A stretch of 20,820 bases of DNA from a virus, in the IMG/VR virus record IMGVR_UViG_3300037041_001615, positions 1-20,820 of that record; one strand, given 5' to 3'. Positions 3,332 to 20,820 of the stretch are shown in pieces; the first letter of the stretch is position 1; the number at the start of each line of letters is the position of its first letter. Below the pieces are notes generated by a model that was not told the origin of the DNA, did no database searches, and was given only the letters and a program-made list of their open reading frames with translations. The position numbers and the translations under genes are program-made.

Positions 3332-3739
3332 GTGGGAAAATATGTTAATTTAGAAACAGATATTTTTTCAGTTTTTGCAAGCACTCAATGGAAAAATGAA
3401 AAAATAAATACATATCCGAATAACTTCACCATTACAAATAACTCAGGTGAATTTATAAGAGTTACAATAATCCCAAGCGGAGCTGGTATAAATATCGCTT
3501 CAGTTTCAGGAGTATTAATCATAGACATATTTACATTTGCAGGTGAAGGGACTAAGCGTCCTTCAACTATTGCAGATAAGCTAGATCAATATTTGGTGGG
3601 AAAATCAATAAATACTATAAATAATAACAGTACACAATTTCAAGGAAGTTCGTTATCGTTTGTTGGTATAGATACAGATAATCCATCTTTGTTTAGATCA
3701 AACTACACAATATCTTTTAATTTTTACGGAACTTTATAA
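3332..3739 (+). CDS. Tail terminator-like protein (DUF4128-like)
   Basis: A 135-residue protein with a GTG start at 3332; AAGGA at 3318-3322 gives 9-base spacing and no better start exists. The strand-rich body and the ending NPSLFRSNYTISFNFYGTL match the phage 'tail terminator-like' group (DUF4128, lambda gpU-like role), which caps the tail tube at its head-proximal end and sets final length together with the tape measure. It lies immediately before the tube genes, the classical place for this protein. Recognition is by the terminal motif and context only. Confidence 0.6.
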   Translation: MGKYVNLETDIFSVFASTQWKNEKINTYPNNFTITNNSGEFIRVTIIPSGAGINIASVSGVLIIDIFTFAGEGTKRPSTIADKLDQYLVGKSINTINNNSTQFQGSSLSFVGIDTDNPSLFRSNYTISFNFYGTL

Positions 3740-3741
3740 AT

Positions 3742-4326
3742 ATGGCACATATTTCTACACTCGGTGCAGGTATTTACTCAGATCTATCTGTTTATGTACC
3801 TGCTGCAGCGTCACCTTTAACAGCACCAACAACTCCAGTAAAAGCTACTGTTGATGCTTTATTTTCAGGTGTTACTGCTCAAACAGCAACAAACGTTACT
3901 ACAGCAGCTTCTGTTAGAATTCAAAACGTACGATCATTTCCTTCAATAGGCGCACCAGCAAATATTGTTAACGTGGCTACATTTGGTTCTAAAGCTTCAA
4001 AACAAATCAATGGTCAAGCTGATTCACCAACTATTGAATTGACATTGAACTATATCCCTGCAGAATGGGATCCAACTCTTATTTTAGGTGCAAGAGTGGG
4101 TGACGGTAATGTTTATGCATTTCGTTTCACATTGTTCAATACACCTCCTACAGGTACTACATTTGCTTCGTCATCTGTAGGTTTTGGAGCAGGTGTTCAA
4201 AACAGCTATTGGTATTGGTATGGTAAAATTGAAGCATTGTTAATCAATCCTCAACTTACTGATTCTAATACTGCAACATTGACTCTTTCAGTTCAATCTG
4301 ATTTTGCCGGTCCATACACAGTATAA
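3742..4326 (+). CDS. Tail tube protein 1 (short paralogue)
   Basis: A 194-residue, strand-rich protein with few charges. It aligns end to end with the next gene product: both start MAHIS..GAGI.SDLSV, share FGSKASKQINGQADS in the middle, and end with LINPQLTD.NTATLTLSV and DF.GPYT. Tail tube subunits form stacked hexameric rings around the tape measure. The place (after the terminator, before the chaperones) and the existence of a paralogue support the tube role. Ribosome binding is weak (ACGGA, about 11 bases upstream); the gene begins two bases after the previous stop, so coupling is likely. A minor tube-like role for one of the two is possible. Confidence 0.75.
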   Translation: MAHISTLGAGIYSDLSVYVPAAASPLTAPTTPVKATVDALFSGVTAQTATNVTTAASVRIQNVRSFPSIGAPANIVNVATFGSKASKQINGQADSPTIELTLNYIPAEWDPTLILGARVGDGNVYAFRFTLFNTPPTGTTFASSSVGFGAGVQNSYWYWYGKIEALLINPQLTDSNTATLTLSVQSDFAGPYTV

Positions 4327-4339
4327 TAGGGAGTAATAC

Positions 4340-5122
4340 ATGGCTCATATTTCGTCTATTGGTGCTGGTATATTTTCAGATTTATCTGTTGCAGCACCTG
4401 CTACTGATTATACAAATGCAAATTTTGCAACATTCATTAGTGCAGCTACTTGGCAAGCCATTTTTGCCGATGAAGTTATTACAGGCTTATCTGGAGCAAC
4501 TAATGGCTATGTAAGATTGGCAAACGTAAGATCATATCCATCAATAGGAGCTCCTTCAAATATTATTAATGTTGCTTCTTTTGGTTCTAAAGCTTCAAAA
4601 CAAATTAATGGTCAAGCTGACTCTCAGACTATTGAAATAACTGTTAACTTTATTTCTTCTGAATGGGATGCCAGTTCTAAATTATTAGCTACCTTTTTGA
4701 ATGATGGGAAATATCATGCATTTAGATTTAGTCTTTTAAATGCAAGTCCAACAAACTTTTCAAAAGGTAATGACTCTTTGACAGCATCTGCTGCTGCAGG
4801 TTCAGGTTATTCTATTGTGTTAACAGGTGCACCTCCTGCAACTGTTGAAATAGGACAACAAGTTTGGTCTACAGGAGGCTCTCCTGAATCGCTAGGTACA
4901 ATCACTGCAATTGTTGGTTCAACCTTAACAATGGATACAATACAAACTTACAGTGCCAGTGCTACATTCACCACAAAAGGTATTGGACAAGTTCCAAATA
5001 GCCAATGGTATTTTTATGGTAAATTAGAAGCATTGTTAATTAACCCTCAATTAACTGATGCAAATACTGCAACATTAACATTATCTGTTGCTTCTGATTT
5101 CTACGGACCATATACTTTATAA
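4340..5122 (+). CDS. Tail tube protein 2 (paralogue with an inserted domain)
   Basis: A 260-residue paralogue of the preceding protein with the same core (FGSKASKQINGQADS; LINPQLTDANTATLTLS). The extra length is one insert at about residues 144-213 (nt 4769-4980), Gly/Ser/Thr-rich and strand-forming (VEIGQQVWSTGGSPESLGT), placed where the short copy has only a brief loop. In other phages, tube proteins carry such extra domains on the outside of the tube. A GGGAG ribosome site precedes ATG 4340, stronger than that of the first copy, so this may be the more heavily translated subunit. The two could co-assemble or form different tail segments; the sequence alone does not decide. Confidence 0.75.
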   Translation: MAHISSIGAGIFSDLSVAAPATDYTNANFATFISAATWQAIFADEVITGLSGATNGYVRLANVRSYPSIGAPSNIINVASFGSKASKQINGQADSQTIEITVNFISSEWDASSKLLATFLNDGKYHAFRFSLLNASPTNFSKGNDSLTASAAAGSGYSIVLTGAPPATVEIGQQVWSTGGSPESLGTITAIVGSTLTMDTIQTYSASATFTTKGIGQVPNSQWYFYGKLEALLINPQLTDANTATLTLSVASDFYGPYTL

Positions 5123-5132
5123 TATTGAAATA

Positions 5133-5159
5133 TATGAGGTGGTGTAATATCACCTCATA
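5133..5159. terminator. Hairpin after the tail tube genes (weak or partial terminator candidate)
   Basis: TATGAGGTG (5133-5141) pairs perfectly with CACCTCATA (5151-5159) around a 9-nt loop. It lies 11 bases after the tube gene stop. No T-tract follows, so it is not a classical intrinsic terminator; it could stabilise the upstream tube mRNA or cause partial attenuation. Confidence 0.45.
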
Positions 5160-5176
5160 ACTCTCAAGGGAAAAAT

Positions 5177-5442: not shown

Positions 5443-5772
5443 ATGATTCCACAAATAAAGGTAAATAGTATGTCAGGTATGAGAAGTCTAGTTGGACGTA
5501 AAATGACTAAGTCTGTAAAATTTATGGGCGAAGATATTAAGATTTCAAAATTGAGTGTTTCTGAAGTAATGGACATTCAAGTAAAAGCAAAAACTGTTGA
5601 AGGAGATGAATCTGCCGGTTTAGAGCTTTTAAAGTGTGTTATTGTCGCTTCTGCTGAAGGTGCAGAAGATTTGGCAGACGAAGATTTTCAAACATTCCCT
5701 ATGGATGAACTGTCTAAGCTTTCAAATGAAATAATGAAATTTTCTGGTATTGGTGCAGAAGCGGGAAAGTAG
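5443..5772 (+). CDS. Tail assembly chaperone G-like protein
   Basis: A 109-residue acidic protein with strand-rich start (VKFMGEDIKISKLSVSEVMD) and helical C-terminal half (FPMDELSKLSNEIMKFSG), in the place of lambda gpG between tube and tape measure genes. G-type chaperones coat the tape measure before tube polymerisation and are not in the finished virion. The last two sense codons, GGA AAG, followed by TAG at 5770, form part of the slippery heptamer G GGA AAG, so a fraction of ribosomes should continue in the -1 frame to give a 221-residue GT fusion. Start at ATG 5443 has a weak ACGGA site. Confidence 0.8.
   Translation: MIPQIKVNSMSGMRSLVGRKMTKSVKFMGEDIKISKLSVSEVMDIQVKAKTVEGDESAGLELLKCVIVASAEGAEDLADEDFQTFPMDELSKLSNEIMKFSGIGAEAGK
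5763..5769 (+). promoter_or_regulatory. Programmed -1 ribosomal frameshift site GGGAAAG
   Basis: The heptamer G GGA AAG, the same as at the lambda G-T junction, lies directly before the G-like stop TAG (5770-5772). A -1 slip re-reads GGG AAA then GTA GAA CTC and stays open through the T-like frame to the TAA at 6105-6107. The frame arithmetic is exact (G in frame 1, T in frame 0). No strong downstream hairpin is obvious; the adjacent stop codon may add to pausing. Confidence 0.9.
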
Positions 5773-13281: not shown

Positions 13282-13905
13282 ATGGCATACGGTATCTATG
13301 AGAACGGAGCAGTAATTGCTGCATTTGTCGCACCAATGCGAGTAATAAGCAACAAGCCCATATTCGTTTCAGATACCCTTTCACTAAAAAGAACAACATT
13401 CTCAAGATCGGCACAACGATGGGAGATCGAGACAAATCTCGAACCTCTCGTCGAAACTGCAAATACCTTGTTTGTGAATTTAGTTACAAAGGGAAAGTCT
13501 GAAACTTTAACAGTGTTAATGCCGCAAAATTATGCGGTGACAAAGAAAAGAACATCAACTTCAACAGCACCGACGGCAATAGCAGTTGCTGGTGCAAGCT
13601 CTGCATCAGGTATAATAAGTACATCAGATGTTGTGGTTGCAGCAAATTCAGGTTTAATTCCTAAAGGATCTTTTATTAAATTTGCAAATCATGATAAAGT
13701 ATATATGACTGTTTCAGATCTTACAAATACAGGCGTTCTTACCATTTTCCCAACATTACAAGCAACCGTTTCAAGTACGGTATTTGCATTTAAAGATGAT
13801 GTAATTCTTAAAGGTATTTATGACACAGATACAATAACAGGAATGGTATATACAGACGGTATTATGATGGATATGGGTACTGTCAAGATTGTGGAGAAAC
13901 TATAA
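13282..13905 (+). CDS. Minor tail / distal tail protein
   Basis: A 207-residue strand-rich protein directly after the tape measure, the place of lambda gpM or a Dit-like distal tail protein that starts the tail tip. The N-terminal part (TLSLKRTTFSRSAQRWEIET) and the C-terminal part appear to form one domain interrupted at about residues 90-175 by a small beta insert (LIPKGSFIKFANHDKVYM, then LTIFPTLQATV) of the kind commonly seen inside phage tail-tip proteins. AAAGGA upstream sets the start. TAATG overlap couples it to the next gene. The exact lambda counterpart is uncertain. Confidence 0.65.
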   Translation: MAYGIYENGAVIAAFVAPMRVISNKPIFVSDTLSLKRTTFSRSAQRWEIETNLEPLVETANTLFVNLVTKGKSETLTVLMPQNYAVTKKRTSTSTAPTAIAVAGASSASGIISTSDVVVAANSGLIPKGSFIKFANHDKVYMTVSDLTNTGVLTIFPTLQATVSSTVFAFKDDVILKGIYDTDTITGMVYTDGIMMDMGTVKIVEKL

Positions 13906-14954
13906 TGGTAGTGCTTAGTGATAATATTAAAGCATGTTTAGCTTTAGACAGTGTTGAAGCTTTTTATTTGTTAAGAATAACAAATGCAGATAATTCTGTA
14001 ATTTATGCAAGTACAACATATTTTAAAGATATTGTACTTTCAAACGGATATTCATATACAGCCGATGATTTAATAGTGGCTGTTGATAGTCCCCAAATAT
14101 CTTCGAGTGTGGATCGTGAGCAATATAAAATTGTTCTTGCTGATCCCACTTTTGCACAAGGAGTTAGTGCATCGACAGGTCTTGTCGGTAAATATTTAGA
14201 AACAAGGATTGGTTTTATAAATAGATCAGCAGCTCCCGGAGTTACAACATTTGTAACAAATTTGAATTACGATTTCAATGGTACTTTACCTTCAAGCTGG
14301 GCATATCCAGGAACTATTGTTTCAACAGATGCAGCAGCTACTACAACATTGACAAACACGGTAATTGATCAAAATTTGAGATTATCGGGAGTATCAATAA
14401 CTCCTGCTTCAAACTATCTTATTAGAATGAGAGTTAAATTGGTTTCAGGGGCATGGGAGGGTAATCTTTTCTATACAAATACAAATCATGGTGAATCAGG
14501 TACTGTTGGACAGTATTTGTCTATACCCGCACCAACTCTTGGAGTATGGACAACTATTACTGTTGATGCAAGATCATTTGTAAATGATTATTTTACAGGT
14601 GGAACAATTACAGCTTTAAGATTTGATTTTATAAATGCATCAAGTGCAAGTGTGGCCATTGATTATATTCAAATAGGCAAAGCTGAAGATTATGGTCAAC
14701 CGTATTTGAATGCTTCTGACACATTTATTGTTTATAAGGGTCGTGTTGAAAGCGTGGCATATGCTATTGATACACAAGAAATTGGTGAAGCCAAAATAAA
14801 TATAACAGGCTCAAGTCCGATTGTAAATCTTGATCAAAAGAATGCAATTTACTTGAGTAGAGACTATATTCGAAAACAAAATGCTTCGGATTCTTGTTGT
14901 GATCAAATTTTTGAAGGATCAGGAACTCTTGCATTAAAATGGGGTAAGAAATAA
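13905..14954 (+). CDS. Tail hub / minor tail protein (gpL-like position) with inserted carbohydrate-binding-like module
   Basis: A 349-residue protein. The outer parts (VDSPQISSSVDREQYKIVLA, then GLVGKYLETRIGFI; and later FIVYKGRVESVAY) form a typical phage tail-tip/hub domain. Between them, residues about 117-259 form a beta-sandwich-like module (SWAYPGTIV, ASNYLIRMRVKLVSGAW, LRFDFINASSASVAIDYIQI) resembling carbohydrate-binding jelly rolls in tail-tip proteins. The C-terminus holds SDSCCDQIF; only three Cys occur in all, fewer than the four that bind the Fe-S cluster in lambda gpL, so a cluster of that kind is doubtful. Start and stop both overlap neighbours as TAATG, so three tip genes are translated as a coupled set. 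Confidence 0.65.
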   Translation: MVVLSDNIKACLALDSVEAFYLLRITNADNSVIYASTTYFKDIVLSNGYSYTADDLIVAVDSPQISSSVDREQYKIVLADPTFAQGVSASTGLVGKYLETRIGFINRSAAPGVTTFVTNLNYDFNGTLPSSWAYPGTIVSTDAAATTTLTNTVIDQNLRLSGVSITPASNYLIRMRVKLVSGAWEGNLFYTNTNHGESGTVGQYLSIPAPTLGVWTTITVDARSFVNDYFTGGTITALRFDFINASSASVAIDYIQIGKAEDYGQPYLNASDTFIVYKGRVESVAYAIDTQEIGEAKINITGSSPIVNLDQKNAIYLSRDYIRKQNASDSCCDQIFEGSGTLALKWGKK

Positions 14955-17900
14955 TGACATTTACGCTTATAACGTTAAATATGGTAATTGGTGCCATGAT
15001 GGTCATCCAGACTGTCGCATCTATTGTTTTTCAAGTTTTGCAAACAAAGAAAAAAGAAAGTCAACAAGCAAGTCAAAAATCTTCTGATGCAAAAAAGGGG
15101 TTTGAAATTGTTGTTGAAGGCAATGCTGACTATGTACCTAAGATTTATGGAAGAGCCAAGATTGGAGGTACTCGTGTATTTCATGGAACATCCAGTGATT
15201 ATAAATTTGTAACAACAAATGCTGATGAGTCTTTTCAAACAGGTTCAACAGCAGTTGCCAGTGGAACTTATTCAAGAAAGCAATATGATATAGATGGAAA
15301 TCTATACAATGAAAATACAACCTATAATGCATTAGACAATGGAACTTTATCTAAATCATATACTGGTAATGCTAAGAATGAGTTTTTATATTTTCAACAA
15401 GTACTTTGTCAAGGACCAATTAATAATGTAATTGAAGTCATTATTGACGAATCCAGATACCTTGATGATCCAGCATTAAGCGATTATGTTATACGTAATG
15501 AACAAGAATGGAGTACTCCTGATGGTGGTACTGAAACAAGAGTTGTTTGGAACAAAACAAAAGCAGCTTTACGTGTAAATATATTTAAATCAGGTGGTAT
15601 TGCCGATTCTATTGTTGCTGCAAACTTTAATGAAAGAAAAGATTCAACCTTTACTGGCATGGCTTATGCTAGTGCAATAGTAAGATTAGATAGAGAAGAT
15701 CCTCAATTTGCAGGTGTACCAAATTTACAATTCTTAATTGAAGGTGCATTGGTTCGAAAAGTTGTAGGCGGTGTACTGTCAACAACTTATACATATTCAA
15801 ATAATCCTGCTTGGTGTTTATTGGATTATTTATTGGACACTAAATGTGGTAAGGGTGTTGACCCTTTAAAAGAAGTTGATTTGTCTTCTTTTGAAGCTTC
15901 TGCTGCAGTTTGTGATATGGTTGTACAAAATAATGTTGTTGTCGGTGGTAAGATATATCAACCTACAGATAATACAAGAAATGTATATACAAGAAATTTG
16001 CGATTATATGAATGTAATGTTATTACAGACCCTAAAAAATCTATAAGAGACAACATCGAAGCTATATTAGAAACAATGGGTGATGCTCGTTTAGTATGGT
16101 CAGGTGGTAAATACAAACTTAATTTACAGTATGTAAGTGCAAATGCTCAACTAATAACTTCCACAACAATTACTGATGATGATTTAGCTTTAGATCAAAG
16201 CGTTTCAATATCATGGCCAACAGCAAGTCAACGTTTAAATTACTGTACTGTACGTTTTCATAATGAATGTGAAGAGTTTAAAGAAGATTCAGTATCATGG
16301 CCTCCAAAAATAAGTTCAACAGTTACTCGTGGTATTGGTGGTTTTAAATACTCTCAAGCAATTACAGCTTACGATGAAGATAAAGTAAGAGGTAGGTTAT
16401 TAAACGCTTATGGTGTTTGGTCAGGAGCAGAAACAACTGCAATAGACTATAAAATGTTAGTTGCCAAATCACAAGCAGGCTCTGTAACTTTAACTTTTGC
16501 AGGTGATAAAACTATAACTATAACTATTACTGATGATAGCACAAGCGCTGTAATTTATACAGGTAGTGCAAGTACTAGTATAGGCACTACAACACTAACA
16601 ATGGGTAATGTAAGTGTTGATAAGGTTTACTCAATACACATTACAGGAACTGCAGGTGCTCATGCTAAAGCTGTTTCGGCAAAACTTGAAACTAGTAGCA
16701 CTATTCTTTGGACAACAAGATCTGTAGCATACACAGCATACGTAGCAAATACATATTCTTCAGCAGTATATGATGCTATGCTGTTGGAAGATAGTAACGT
16801 TAAGCTTGAATTTGAAATGTTTTCTGAAGGTATTGTTGACGCATATCATGCACTAGCAAAGGCTGAAGAATTAGTAAGAACAAGTCGTTCAGCGTTTACA
16901 ATGCAATTTAAATATATTATAAGAAATAGCTATTTAGAGCCTGGCGATTATATTAAATTACAAAGCGACACATTGTATTTAGGTTCAGTTGCAAATCCTT
17001 TATATTTAAAAATAGAGTCTGTAAAAATTACTGAAGACAGTTCATGTGAAATTGTAGCAACTAGATTTGATTATACACAATTAGCATGGAGCGTAAAAGA
17101 TGATCAATATGTTTTACCAAAACCTATTTATGATTCACAAGTTGTAGCTCCAGAATGGATAGAATACACGCCTATGGCTGGTGTAATAACCAACTCTTCA
17201 GGTACATTGAATTGGGCAGCAACAAATTTTGTTGATCAGTATATCATCTATATGCACACTTCAGATGATTTGATAGATAGTGATGGTATTCCTGTATTTT
17301 CTGAAATAGGTAGAGCACCGAAAGGCGTAACCACATTTACTTTACCTGTATTGAGTGCTACAAGTGCTTATTTTGGAGTCAAGGTTTCGGTGAATGGCCG
17401 TTTATCGAAAATGACATACACCGATACAGCCACTGCAATAATTATTACAAATATTTCGTATTCATTTAATAATTTATCTTTTACTTATAATAGCCCTGCA
17501 GCTAATCAAATAACATGGTCAGATTTTATTGTAACATTAAATGGTACTGTTGTTAAAAATGTCTCTACAGGGTATGCAACATGGTCTTCAAACACTCTTT
17601 ATTTATATTATGATCCTATAACTAATGGTGTATTCAGTACAACATCTGTTAATGCTGCACAGTCAGGCAAAATAATTGCTACTTATGCAGGCGGTACAAA
17701 TCTTACTCCAGAAGTTTCTGACTTACTTCCACCTGTGAAACTATATGTTTATGGTACAGTAGGTGGTACTTATACATCTAAAGATTTAGAGTTAGTTTGG
17801 AGTTATCCTGTTGCAAATGAAGCTTCAACAAGTTCATTGGCAAAATATCAGATTAGATTTATTGATACAACAACAAATGTTGTAAAGTATGCTGAAGATG

Positions 17901-20820
17901 TAGAATATACAAAAGAACGTGGTGGTTATTACAAATTATTTTATGCTAATAATATTTTATATTTTGGATCAGCAACTCGAAGTTTTACAGTAAAAGTTTA
18001 CAGTGTTGATACAAGTGGTTCTTTATCTTCGGCAGCCACATTAGTTGTAAATAATCCTGTTCCTGCAGCTGCAGTGTTTACAGCCACAGCAGGTTTTGAT
18101 CAAGCTTTTATAAAAATAACCCCAACAACTGAAGTTGATGTTGATGGTTATTATGTATATAAGAGTGCAACCACTCCGGTTGTTAAGGATGCTACAACAC
18201 TCGTATATGAAGGTAAAGACACTAATATCGTATTAGCATCTACAGCAGGTATTCAATATTATTATACTGTTGCGGCTTATGACACTTTTGGAAAAACAGG
18301 GTTGCTTTATGCTTCTGAAAACACAGCCACTGCAGTAAGTGCTGAGCCTGATACGTATACTTATACAGGTTTAGTATTCAAGCCCGGATACTCTACATTA
18401 ACAACTGCAACCACAAATGCAGTTTATTGGTCATCTTTTGTTGCCAATAAGAATGGTTCAACAGCTGTAACTGTTACTTCGGGAACAACAACATGGACAA
18501 CAGGAACATTATATTTATATTATATTCCTGGAAATACTTCCATGCAATGGAATACAAGTCTACTTACAGCAATAGCTGCTGGTGGAAGAGTGCTCGCAAC
18601 GTATAAGGGCGGTACCGATTTAACCAGTGATCAAGGAAAGGCGTTTATTTCCGGTGATCAATTATTGGCAGGTACTGTTGGTGCAAGTGCGCTGGTAACC
18701 AACACAGCGATAATAACAGGTTCAGCTCAAATCGGCAATGTACTTCAAAGTAGCAATTACAATTGGGCTGCTGGTAATTATGCTGGATGGAAGATTGATA
18801 AGAGCGGTTCTGCTCAACTTACAAGTGTAGAAATTAGAGGTATAAATGGGGATGTTGTATTCAGTACCGGTACAGGAATGGAATGGGGTTATGTAACAGG
18901 TACAGGGCGACCTGTTGATGGCGCTACTCGAAATGTATTTAAAGGTGACTGGGCGACAGCAACACTATACTCATCTGGCGATATTGTACTTGATGCTTTG
19001 GGTTATGGTTGGTCATGTATTGCTACCCATACCTCTAGTGCAATTATTTCTTATCCTACATATCCTACAGCTTTCAATAATTATTGGACACTATATGCAG
19101 TTAAAGGTGTAGATGCCATATCAACAATTATGAGTAATGATACTCATACATTCCCTGCTGCTAGTGATGGTACTGTATCTGTGTATACAGGTTCAGGAAC
19201 AACATTACAAGTCTTTGAAGGTAGCCGTGAAGTAGTATATGATCCAAATTTTTCTGTTAATCTTGCAAACGGTACTTGGAAAGTAACAGCAGTTGCAACA
19301 AATATTACTGTGGGTACATTAACTGATTCAGGTAACTACTTGACGGTTGGTATCCATAGTGGTGTTGCGGCTGCTACAGACGTATCAACAATTGTATATA
19401 CAATAACAGGGAAAAGATTTGATGGTAGTGCTTTATCAGCAACTGCACAACAGTCTTTCTCGAAAAGTAAAGCTGGTGCCAGTGGTGTTGCAGGTTCATC
19501 AGGTGTTTCTGTCTATTTAGGTACTGTATATCAACAAGTAGCAACAGCTCCTGCTGCCCCTACAGGCGGTACTTATAACTTCAGTACAGGTACTTTAACA
19601 GCACCGGTTGGATGGTCAATAACTCAACCTTCGACCACAACAACACCAACTTATGCTGTAGATTATGTGTTTAGCACATCTACTCCTGCAACAACTGTTA
19701 CTGCAAACGCATGGACAAATGTTCGTATTGAAGCTGTTGCTGGTGGTACAGGTGCAAATGGAACATCAGGTACAAGTGTTTTTATTGTAGAATTATACGC
19801 TCAAGCAGCAACTGCACCTACATTGCCTGCAGCTCCTTCTTATACATTCAGTACAGATACGTTGTCAGGCACATTTACAGGATGGTCAAGATCATTACCT
19901 TCCAGTACAACAACACCCACTTGGAGAACTGCATACACGTTTAGTACAACAACTCCTACTGTTGCTGTTGTAAGTGGTGTGTGGTCAACTGCAATCGTTG
20001 TTTCGCAAAAAGGTGCTGATGGTGCAAATGGTGCAAATGGTGCTTCAGGTGATTCAGTTGATGTAGTTTTTGTAAGAAGTGCTACATTACCTGCAACACC
20101 AACAGCATCGACAGGAACACCAACTGCACCGATTACGTGGTATTCTGATGTAACAAGTGCAAACACTGCTGGTGGTCTTGCTAATCCTTTATATTCAAGC
20201 ACAGGATTTAAAGCAGGTTCTGTGGGTAATTATGCTTGGTCGGCTCCTGTAAGAATAGATGGTACTGCTGTAGCTGAAGTGACAGTTTTTGTCAGAAGTG
20301 CGACTGCTCCTGCAACACCCACAACAGGAGGTACTTATACATTTAGTACACCACCGGTCATTGTTGCTCCCACAGCACCTATTGCTTGGTCAACTTCAGT
20401 ACCTAGTGGAACTAATCCTGTTTATACATCAAGAGCTGTAGTATCTACATCCTCAACTAATACTGCTGCGGTTGCTATTAGTGGTTGGTCGGCACCTGTG
20501 ATAAGTTTACAAAATGGGGCTAATGGGGCTAATGGGGCTCAAGGTCCAAGTGCTTTAATGACATCTAGCAGGGCTGCATCATTTACTGCGACTGACGGTA
20601 CATTGGATGCTTCTCAAACTGACATAGTATTCACAACACAAGTGAGTGGAGTTACAAGCCCAACATATGTTTGGTCATTCAGTGGTTTTCAAACAGCACC
20701 GACAAATGGTGGACTTTCCACACAAACAGTTACAGCTGCACAATTTGGAACTTCAAAATCTGCAATCGTGACTTGTACAGTGAGTGGTGTATATGTTGAT
20801 AAAATGACTGTGGTCAGATT
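14954..20820 (+). CDS. Giant gpJ-like tail tip / host-recognition protein, 3' end beyond the window
   Basis: Open from ATG 14954 to the window end: 1955 codons with no stop. Residues about 5-29 are hydrophobic (a possible membrane helix). VPKIYGRAKIGGTRVFHGT and NPAWCLLDYLLDTKCGKGVD (residues 284-303) are hallmarks of gpJ-like baseplate-hub proteins. Fibronectin III-like domains follow (about 723-830 and 925-1134), flanked by two copies of a tail module (about 835-920 and 1134-1225). Then come the gpJ-type segment AGWKIDKSGSAQLTSVEIRG, a CBM5/12-like chitin-binding-type segment (about 1331-1385), four related fibre modules of about 75-93 residues with Gly-X-Y linkers, and an Ig-like start (about 1865 on). 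It forms the central tip and binds the host surface. No lambda K (NlpC/P60) or I gene lies between the hub gene and this one. Confidence 0.9.
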   Translation, partial: MTFTLITLNMVIGAMMVIQTVASIVFQVLQTKKKESQQASQKSSDAKKGFEIVVEGNADYVPKIYGRAKIGGTRVFHGTSSDYKFVTTNADESFQTGSTAVASGTYSRKQYDIDGNLYNENTTYNALDNGTLSKSYTGNAKNEFLYFQQVLCQGPINNVIEVIIDESRYLDDPALSDYVIRNEQEWSTPDGGTETRVVWNKTKAALRVNIFKSGGIADSIVAANFNERKDSTFTGMAYASAIVRLDREDPQFAGVPNLQFLIEGALVRKVVGGVLSTTYTYSNNPAWCLLDYLLDTKCGKGVDPLKEVDLSSFEASAAVCDMVVQNNVVVGGKIYQPTDNTRNVYTRNLRLYECNVITDPKKSIRDNIEAILETMGDARLVWSGGKYKLNLQYVSANAQLITSTTITDDDLALDQSVSISWPTASQRLNYCTVRFHNECEEFKEDSVSWPPKISSTVTRGIGGFKYSQAITAYDEDKVRGRLLNAYGVWSGAETTAIDYKMLVAKSQAGSVTLTFAGDKTITITITDDSTSAVIYTGSASTSIGTTTLTMGNVSVDKVYSIHITGTAGAHAKAVSAKLETSSTILWTTRSVAYTAYVANTYSSAVYDAMLLEDSNVKLEFEMFSEGIVDAYHALAKAEELVRTSRSAFTMQFKYIIRNSYLEPGDYIKLQSDTLYLGSVANPLYLKIESVKITEDSSCEIVATRFDYTQLAWSVKDDQYVLPKPIYDSQVVAPEWIEYTPMAGVITNSSGTLNWAATNFVDQYIIYMHTSDDLIDSDGIPVFSEIGRAPKGVTTFTLPVLSATSAYFGVKVSVNGRLSKMTYTDTATAIIITNISYSFNNLSFTYNSPAANQITWSDFIVTLNGTVVKNVSTGYATWSSNTLYLYYDPITNGVFSTTSVNAAQSGKIIATYAGGTNLTPEVSDLLPPVKLYVYGTVGGTYTSKDLELVWSYPVANEASTSSLAKYQIRFIDTTTNVVKYAEDVEYTKERGGYYKLFYANNILYFGSATRSFTVKVYSVDTSGSLSSAATLVVNNPVPAAAVFTATAGFDQAFIKITPTTEVDVDGYYVYKSATTPVVKDATTLVYEGKDTNIVLASTAGIQYYYTVAAYDTFGKTGLLYASENTATAVSAEPDTYTYTGLVFKPGYSTLTTATTNAVYWSSFVANKNGSTAVTVTSGTTTWTTGTLYLYYIPGNTSMQWNTSLLTAIAAGGRVLATYKGGTDLTSDQGKAFISGDQLLAGTVGASALVTNTAIITGSAQIGNVLQSSNYNWAAGNYAGWKIDKSGSAQLTSVEIRGINGDVVFSTGTGMEWGYVTGTGRPVDGATRNVFKGDWATATLYSSGDIVLDALGYGWSCIATHTSSAIISYPTYPTAFNNYWTLYAVKGVDAISTIMSNDTHTFPAASDGTVSVYTGSGTTLQVFEGSREVVYDPNFSVNLANGTWKVTAVATNITVGTLTDSGNYLTVGIHSGVAAATDVSTIVYTITGKRFDGSALSATAQQSFSKSKAGASGVAGSSGVSVYLGTVYQQVATAPAAPTGGTYNFSTGTLTAPVGWSITQPSTTTTPTYAVDYVFSTSTPATTVTANAWTNVRIEAVAGGTGANGTSGTSVFIVELYAQAATAPTLPAAPSYTFSTDTLSGTFTGWSRSLPSSTTTPTWRTAYTFSTTTPTVAVVSGVWSTAIVVSQKGADGANGANGASGDSVDVVFVRSATLPATPTASTGTPTAPITWYSDVTSANTAGGLANPLYSSTGFKAGSVGNYAWSAPVRIDGTAVAEVTVFVRSATAPATPTTGGTYTFSTPPVIVAPTAPIAWSTSVPSGTNPVYTSRAVVSTSSTNTAAVAISGWSAPVISLQNGANGANGAQGPSALMTSSRAASFTATDGTLDASQTDIVFTTQVSGVTSPTYVWSFSGFQTAPTNGGLSTQTVTAAQFGTSKSAIVTCTVSGVYVDKMTVVR
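17456..18628 (+). repeat. Duplicated tail module flanking two fibronectin-like domains
   Basis: Copy A (about 17456-17713) and copy B (about 18353-18628) share a strand-rich plan: a W-S-(D/S)-F-(I/V)-(V/A) segment, TW(S/T)..TLYLYY, and (I/L)ATY.GGT(N/D)LT. They lie about 900 bases apart with fibronectin-like domains between them. Confidence 0.75.
18944..19108 (+). other. CBM5/12-like chitin-binding-type module within the gpJ-like protein
   Basis: The encoded segment GDWATATLYSSGDIVLDALG is followed by YGWSCIATHTSS and then YWTLYAVKG. This W...Y..GDIV...G..W.C...H......W pattern is typical of carbohydrate-binding module families 5/12, known from chitinases and phage tail proteins. The ligand here is unknown. 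Confidence 0.55.
19508..20548 (+). repeat. Four tandem fibre modules with Gly-X-Y (collagen-like) linkers
   Basis: Modules begin near 19508, 19775, 20054 and 20279, each opening with a V-(Y/F)-(L/V)...A..P..P pattern and containing a W-S/W-Y..(V/L)P...P.Y/W pattern. Gly-X-Y runs precede modules 1-3 (for example GADGANGANGASGDS at about 20012-20056) and follow module 4 (GANGANGAQGPS, 20516-20551). At DNA level the linkers are perfect 9-base tandem repeats: GGTGCAAAT x2 at 20021-20038 and GGGGCTAAT x2 plus GGGGCT at 20516-20539. Confidence 0.8.

Follow-up and report, generated by a model that had tools for sequence, protein, structure and literature searches.

Adjacent tail tube paralogues, one with an inserted predicted OB-like domain, in an uncultured virus contig

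Two adjacent genes of an uncultured virus encode paralogous proteins predicted to be tail tube (major tail) proteins, an undecorated one of 194 aa (TTP1, positions 3742..4326, + strand) and one of 260 aa with an internal extra domain (TTP2, 4340..5122, + strand). We suggest that both are probably functional tube subunits built together into one tail, which would then be a mosaic of plain (TTP1) and decorated (TTP2) subunits. A mixed tail with a decorated surface is the reading that we favour, and its support comes from sequence conservation, from the matching of a loop between the two proteins and from the RNA hairpin that follows the pair; co-assembly, the outward position of the knobs, their function and the subunit ratio are what we infer. 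In the proposed mechanism TTP1 and TTP2 would be made from one high-expression unit and both would be incorporated in the same tail tube, with purifying selection and segmental gene conversion keeping the tube-forming cores interchangeable. The OB-like domain of TTP2, which separates two tube-fold strands, would be expected on the outer surface of the tail, and the resulting knobs would probably bind the cell envelope through weak, multivalent contacts or lend the tail stability.

The window, that is, the whole stretch of DNA analysed (20,820 nt), is the 20.8 kb uncultured virus contig IMGVR_UViG_3300037041_001615. It carries a siphovirus structural module comprising major head protein, tail terminator, TTP1, TTP2, chaperone, a long ORF in the position of the tape measure, distal tail protein (Dit) and tip protein. 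The tail terminator gene is upstream of the tube pair (3332..3739, + strand; PHROG 179, E 1.8e-6), the tail assembly chaperone is at 5443..5772 (+ strand; PHROG 4976, E 1.5e-4) and a separate Dit of 207 aa is at 13282..13905 (+ strand; PHROG 1302, E 2.7e-9). The ORF at 14954-20818, which is cut by the contig edge while still open and encodes at least 1955 aa, is tip-attachment-like and has repeated modules. The Dits of some relatives are longer than that of the window (L163:1498-2277, 260 aa; L212:1149-2270, 374 aa) and have extra segments within the B region relative to it; the L163 phage has twin tube genes.

Both tube proteins match PHROG 158, 'major tail protein', and no other PHROG in the profile scan (E 1.1e-13 for TTP1 and 3.6e-10 for TTP2). 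AlphaFold (AF2) models built from a 72-sequence alignment have a pLDDT of 83 for TTP1 and 80 for TTP2 and match lambda gpV with Z of 10.5 and 11, respectively. Each predicted model has the siphophage tube fold, with a beta-sandwich, a helix, a long loop and a match to a solved tube; full-length TTP2 had no match among PDB sequences. The earlier note on this DNA had proposed a tandem duplication of the tube gene, which is borne out by two adjoining PHROG 158 paralogues with gpV-like models, and the structure prediction that it had asked for both proteins gives a tail tube fold in each, not an unrelated fold (gpV Z ~11). Each of TTP1 and TTP2 is a complete ORF with its own start; both are on the + strand, 13 nt apart, and a stop codon and a new start lie between them. 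That they are paralogues is also seen in gapless DNA repeats of 78% identity between the genes (3912-4086/4510-4684, 175 nt; 4195-4328/4991-5124, 134 nt), which far exceed chance and map to residues ~58-115 and to the C-terminal strands, and in the 15-mer FGSKASKQINGQADS, which matches exactly between the proteins. In shared columns the two are ~60% identical, with 81% at residues 62-104, 78% at 215-260 and 42-44% elsewhere. The 'near-identical core' of the earlier note is thus right for the 62-104 loop region and overstated for the remainder.

The added domain, given in that note as about 70 residues, is ~66-72 residues long (~143-214) and internal, not terminal. It lies between the strands at residues 126-133 and 220-235, where TTP1 has a short linker, and occupies 4757..4984 on the + strand (~residues 140-215). 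It is missing in TTP1 and in single-copy relatives, in agreement with a domain gained by one copy. The insert is predicted to be a small, OB-like beta-barrel. In fold it matches the OB-type decoration domain of Dit proteins: its top structural matches are to residues 231-310 of 8vjh_B from the tail tip of phage Chi (70 residues, rmsd 1.9, Z 8.6) and to residues 246-325 of 8rk3_D from the JBD30 baseplate (72 residues, Z 7.8), with an rmsd of 1.9-2.1 for the two. In the Dit of JBD30, which chain D of 8rk3 appears to be, OB domain V (252-320) interrupts a tube-like fold (PMC11445458), and the matched range of 8rk3_D coincides with this domain. Small barrels of unrelated non-phage proteins also match the insert, with Z of 6.4-7.2. 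This indicates that the OB-like fold is common and that the likeness to Dit domains need not reflect common descent. When the insert was compared by hhalign with the B region of the Dit of the same phage family, the probability was 0.1%, with only four insert sequences in the comparison; as no sequence similarity was detected, transfer of a domain from Dit to tube is a structural suggestion only. The best structural matches listed are non-Ig, although the absence of Ig domains from that list excludes nothing. The insert alone had no match in a tblastn search of phage records or in PHROGs, and in a relaxed search of all fetched ORFs only four groups of TTP2 exceeded noise. These groups are connected through the insert itself (L001 versus the window, E 1e-6; L001 versus the L053 group, E ~1e-8), and comparison of the L053 and L056 inserts gives a dN of 0.08 and a dS of 0.93 (dN/dS ~0.09), which indicates that it is functional and under selection.

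The identity of the top matches raises the question of whether TTP2 might be an end-ring specialist, forming one or a few decorated hexamers beside the Dit or the terminator, with TTP1 forming the remaining tube. Both top matches are distal-tail or tail-tip domains, and several phage proteins predicted in the tail-tip region match TTP2 over ~150 columns, probably in its insert-bearing half. We nevertheless regard this as unlikely, since the phage encodes a Dit elsewhere that itself matches PHROG 1302 and since the position of TTP2, between the terminator and the chaperones, resembles that of a main tube gene.

A scan of viral contigs found 178 one-copy loci, of which 115 had flanks of 900 bp or more on each side, and 19 two-copy records including the window; L215 and L216, which repeat L053 and L060, were left out of the latter count, which includes several near-identical contigs of one phage. 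The expectation that most siphoviruses have one tube protein therefore holds within this tube family. Besides the window, three other divergent groups of viral contigs (L001/L002, L052-L055 and L056-L060) have the insert-bearing pair, in which the insert is always in the second copy and its site does not change, and the longer pair-bearing records, searched whole, have exactly these two tube copies. The source of the window is a 20.8 kb contig of an uncultured virus, so that a chimera of two phage variants assembled in a metagenome had to be considered. The same gene order and insert were assembled from other samples in diverged sequences, and these independent contigs refute such an artefact, to which we give practically no weight.

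Plain pairs that lack the insert were found in other lineages (L005/L125, L132/L134/L135, L223 and probably L255). This suggests that duplication of the tube gene is either recurrent or old and often lost. If second copies are easily gained in this way, one of the two tube genes might be redundant or in decay, without a role of its own, and retained because the duplication is recent. This is very improbable in our judgement, since the window and L001 groups keep the pair and the insert at an orthologue identity of just 58-63%, both copies as well as the insert are under purifying selection, and both reading frames are intact. In a tree of all columns the copies of the window and of L001 cluster together (98/84). 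When the loop and insert columns are removed, the four groups of TTP2 join (91/87), which suggests a single origin of the insert, but the TTP1 sequences are not monophyletic. No simple split into an ancestral TTP1 clade and an ancestral TTP2 clade was recovered.

The strongest likeness between the two copies is at residues 62-104 (3925..4053 in TTP1 and 4523..4651 in TTP2, both + strand). In this region paralogues within a phage are 90% identical, against 79% for TTP1 orthologues and 70% for TTP2 orthologues, and there are 12 phage-specific and no copy-specific columns (Fisher P 6e-4 versus the rest, the columns being not fully independent). Outside it the copies are no closer to each other than orthologues are. 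The loop-matching pattern is found again in the plain pair of L005/L125 (P 0.007). Residues 62-104 probably form the ring-stacking loop, as judged from their position in the predicted fold, between early strands and with low pLDDT, and from other tubes, in which a long loop at that position of the fold joins successive rings (PMC8718954). Part of the matching is due to gene conversion. In the group of the window, synonymous codons are phage-specific in the loop (25:3:2) and in the C-terminal strands (30:9:5), and in the tube genes at L001:3143-4528 the C-terminal strands have a dS of 0.20, as in a recent conversion tract, with the remainder far diverged; together these indicate that conversion acts in both regions. 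Because it contributes in the group of the window, matching is in itself no proof of contact. In L132/L134/L135, however, the loops share 98-100% identity even though synonymous sites are nearly saturated and show no phage specificity, which indicates that selection also acts and that conversion alone does not account for the pattern. The simplest cause of the matching would be that both proteins contact the same partners within one tube. The pair is a natural experiment that separates surfaces which need to match (the 62-104 loop and, in part, the C-terminal strands) from those free to diverge.

The matched loop would be required even at a single ring interface and so is compatible with TTP2 in an end ring. 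It is likewise compatible with a heterohexamer that always has three TTP1 and three TTP2 alternating in each ring, a two-gene counterpart of the T5 pb6 trimer. Both copies are kept in four divergent phage groups with matched core loops, and T5 pb6 provides an example of a working pseudo-hexamer built from two unlike tube domains (PMC5717097). Such a fixed composition seems to us quite improbable: no sequence feature sets a 3:3 ratio, near-identical interfaces favour random mixing, and single-copy relatives must build their tubes from one type of subunit. A more general form of order, in which plain and OB-decorated subunits polymerise in a fixed sequence, alternating in rings or graded along the tail, and conversion is confined to the assembly surfaces, we consider unlikely. 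A mosaic tail of the two subunits is the best-supported reading.

Directly 3' of TTP2 there is an RNA hairpin at 5130..5161 (+ strand; MFE -16.6 kcal/mol, z -4.4), which is strong and has no T run; hairpins in this position are frequent throughout the tail tube family. L001, L053 and L056 have hairpins at the equivalent place with different sequences. In single-copy relatives a hairpin directly follows the tube gene (118 cases, median -16.6 kcal/mol, z -2.05), compared with -8.0 kcal/mol and z -0.5 at control gene ends (n=305). In pairs it follows copy 2 and not copy 1: all 10 pairs have the lower MFE after copy 2, and in eight the difference is clear. This suggests that the two genes behave as one tube-gene unit. 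The hairpin may mark or protect a highly expressed tube mRNA, and its placement fits abundant synthesis of both tube proteins. TTP2 has its own ribosome-binding site, GGGAG, just upstream, with a Shine-Dalgarno duplex of -8.5 kcal/mol; that of TTP1 is weaker (-3.5). The stronger Shine-Dalgarno of TTP2, together with the expression-linked hairpin downstream, fits abundant rather than minor production and in this respect also argues against a TTP2 limited to an end ring. As a possible indicator of the subunit ratio, ribosome-binding strength showed no consistent trend across pairs.

Two tube genes of which one is decorated are a variant with precedents in SPP1, JBD30, T5 pb6 and Damascus, not a new kind of system. 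In SPP1, gp17.1 and gp17.1* are plain and FN3-bearing tube proteins made in a 3:1 ratio by translational frameshift (PMC8718954). A plain and a domain-decorated tube protein are also combined here, in what would likewise be one mixed tail. SPP1, however, uses one gene, a frameshift and a C-terminal FN3 domain, and the present phage a second gene that bears an internal, OB-like insert; an SPP1-type frameshift is not the origin of the longer form, TTP1 and TTP2 being separate complete ORFs. Where other phages obtain a mosaic tail by ribosomal frameshift, gene duplication would be a less common route to the same result. The major tail protein of JBD30, gp44, is likewise decorated by an internal domain (residues 88-175; PMC11445458), but it is encoded by a single gene, all subunits are decorated, and the domain is immunoglobulin-like and just after the helix. 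The JBD30 Dit, gp49 (domains III/IV, OB domains V/VI), resembles TTP2 in that an OB domain interrupts its tube-like beta-sandwich and differs in being a baseplate adaptor, a trimer of a large multi-domain protein. In T5 pb6 a tube-protein duplication is fused in one chain and forms trimeric rings (PMC5717097); TTP1 and TTP2 are two free chains and not such a fusion. In the literature that we searched for tails with mixed or paralogous tubes, no study had examined virions with two tube paralogues encoded by separate genes. Multiple major tail proteins are known in the Microbacterium phage Damascus (cluster EL), and two-tube annotations exist in cluster DJ too (PMC11080557, PMC10652937). Damascus gp17, gp19 and gp20 are three paralogous major tail proteins with cores 42-51% identical, and so resemble TTP1 and TTP2 as adjacent or near paralogues with differing extra parts. 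Unlike our pair they belong to PHROG 2645, differ at the C-terminus and are without an internal insert; phmmer found no match between them and the TTP pair, and no homology of the pair to PHROG 2645 was detected. In the Damascus tube genes (L151:10784-14873) the C-terminal parts of the proteins are quite different, and the middle protein is 609 aa long.
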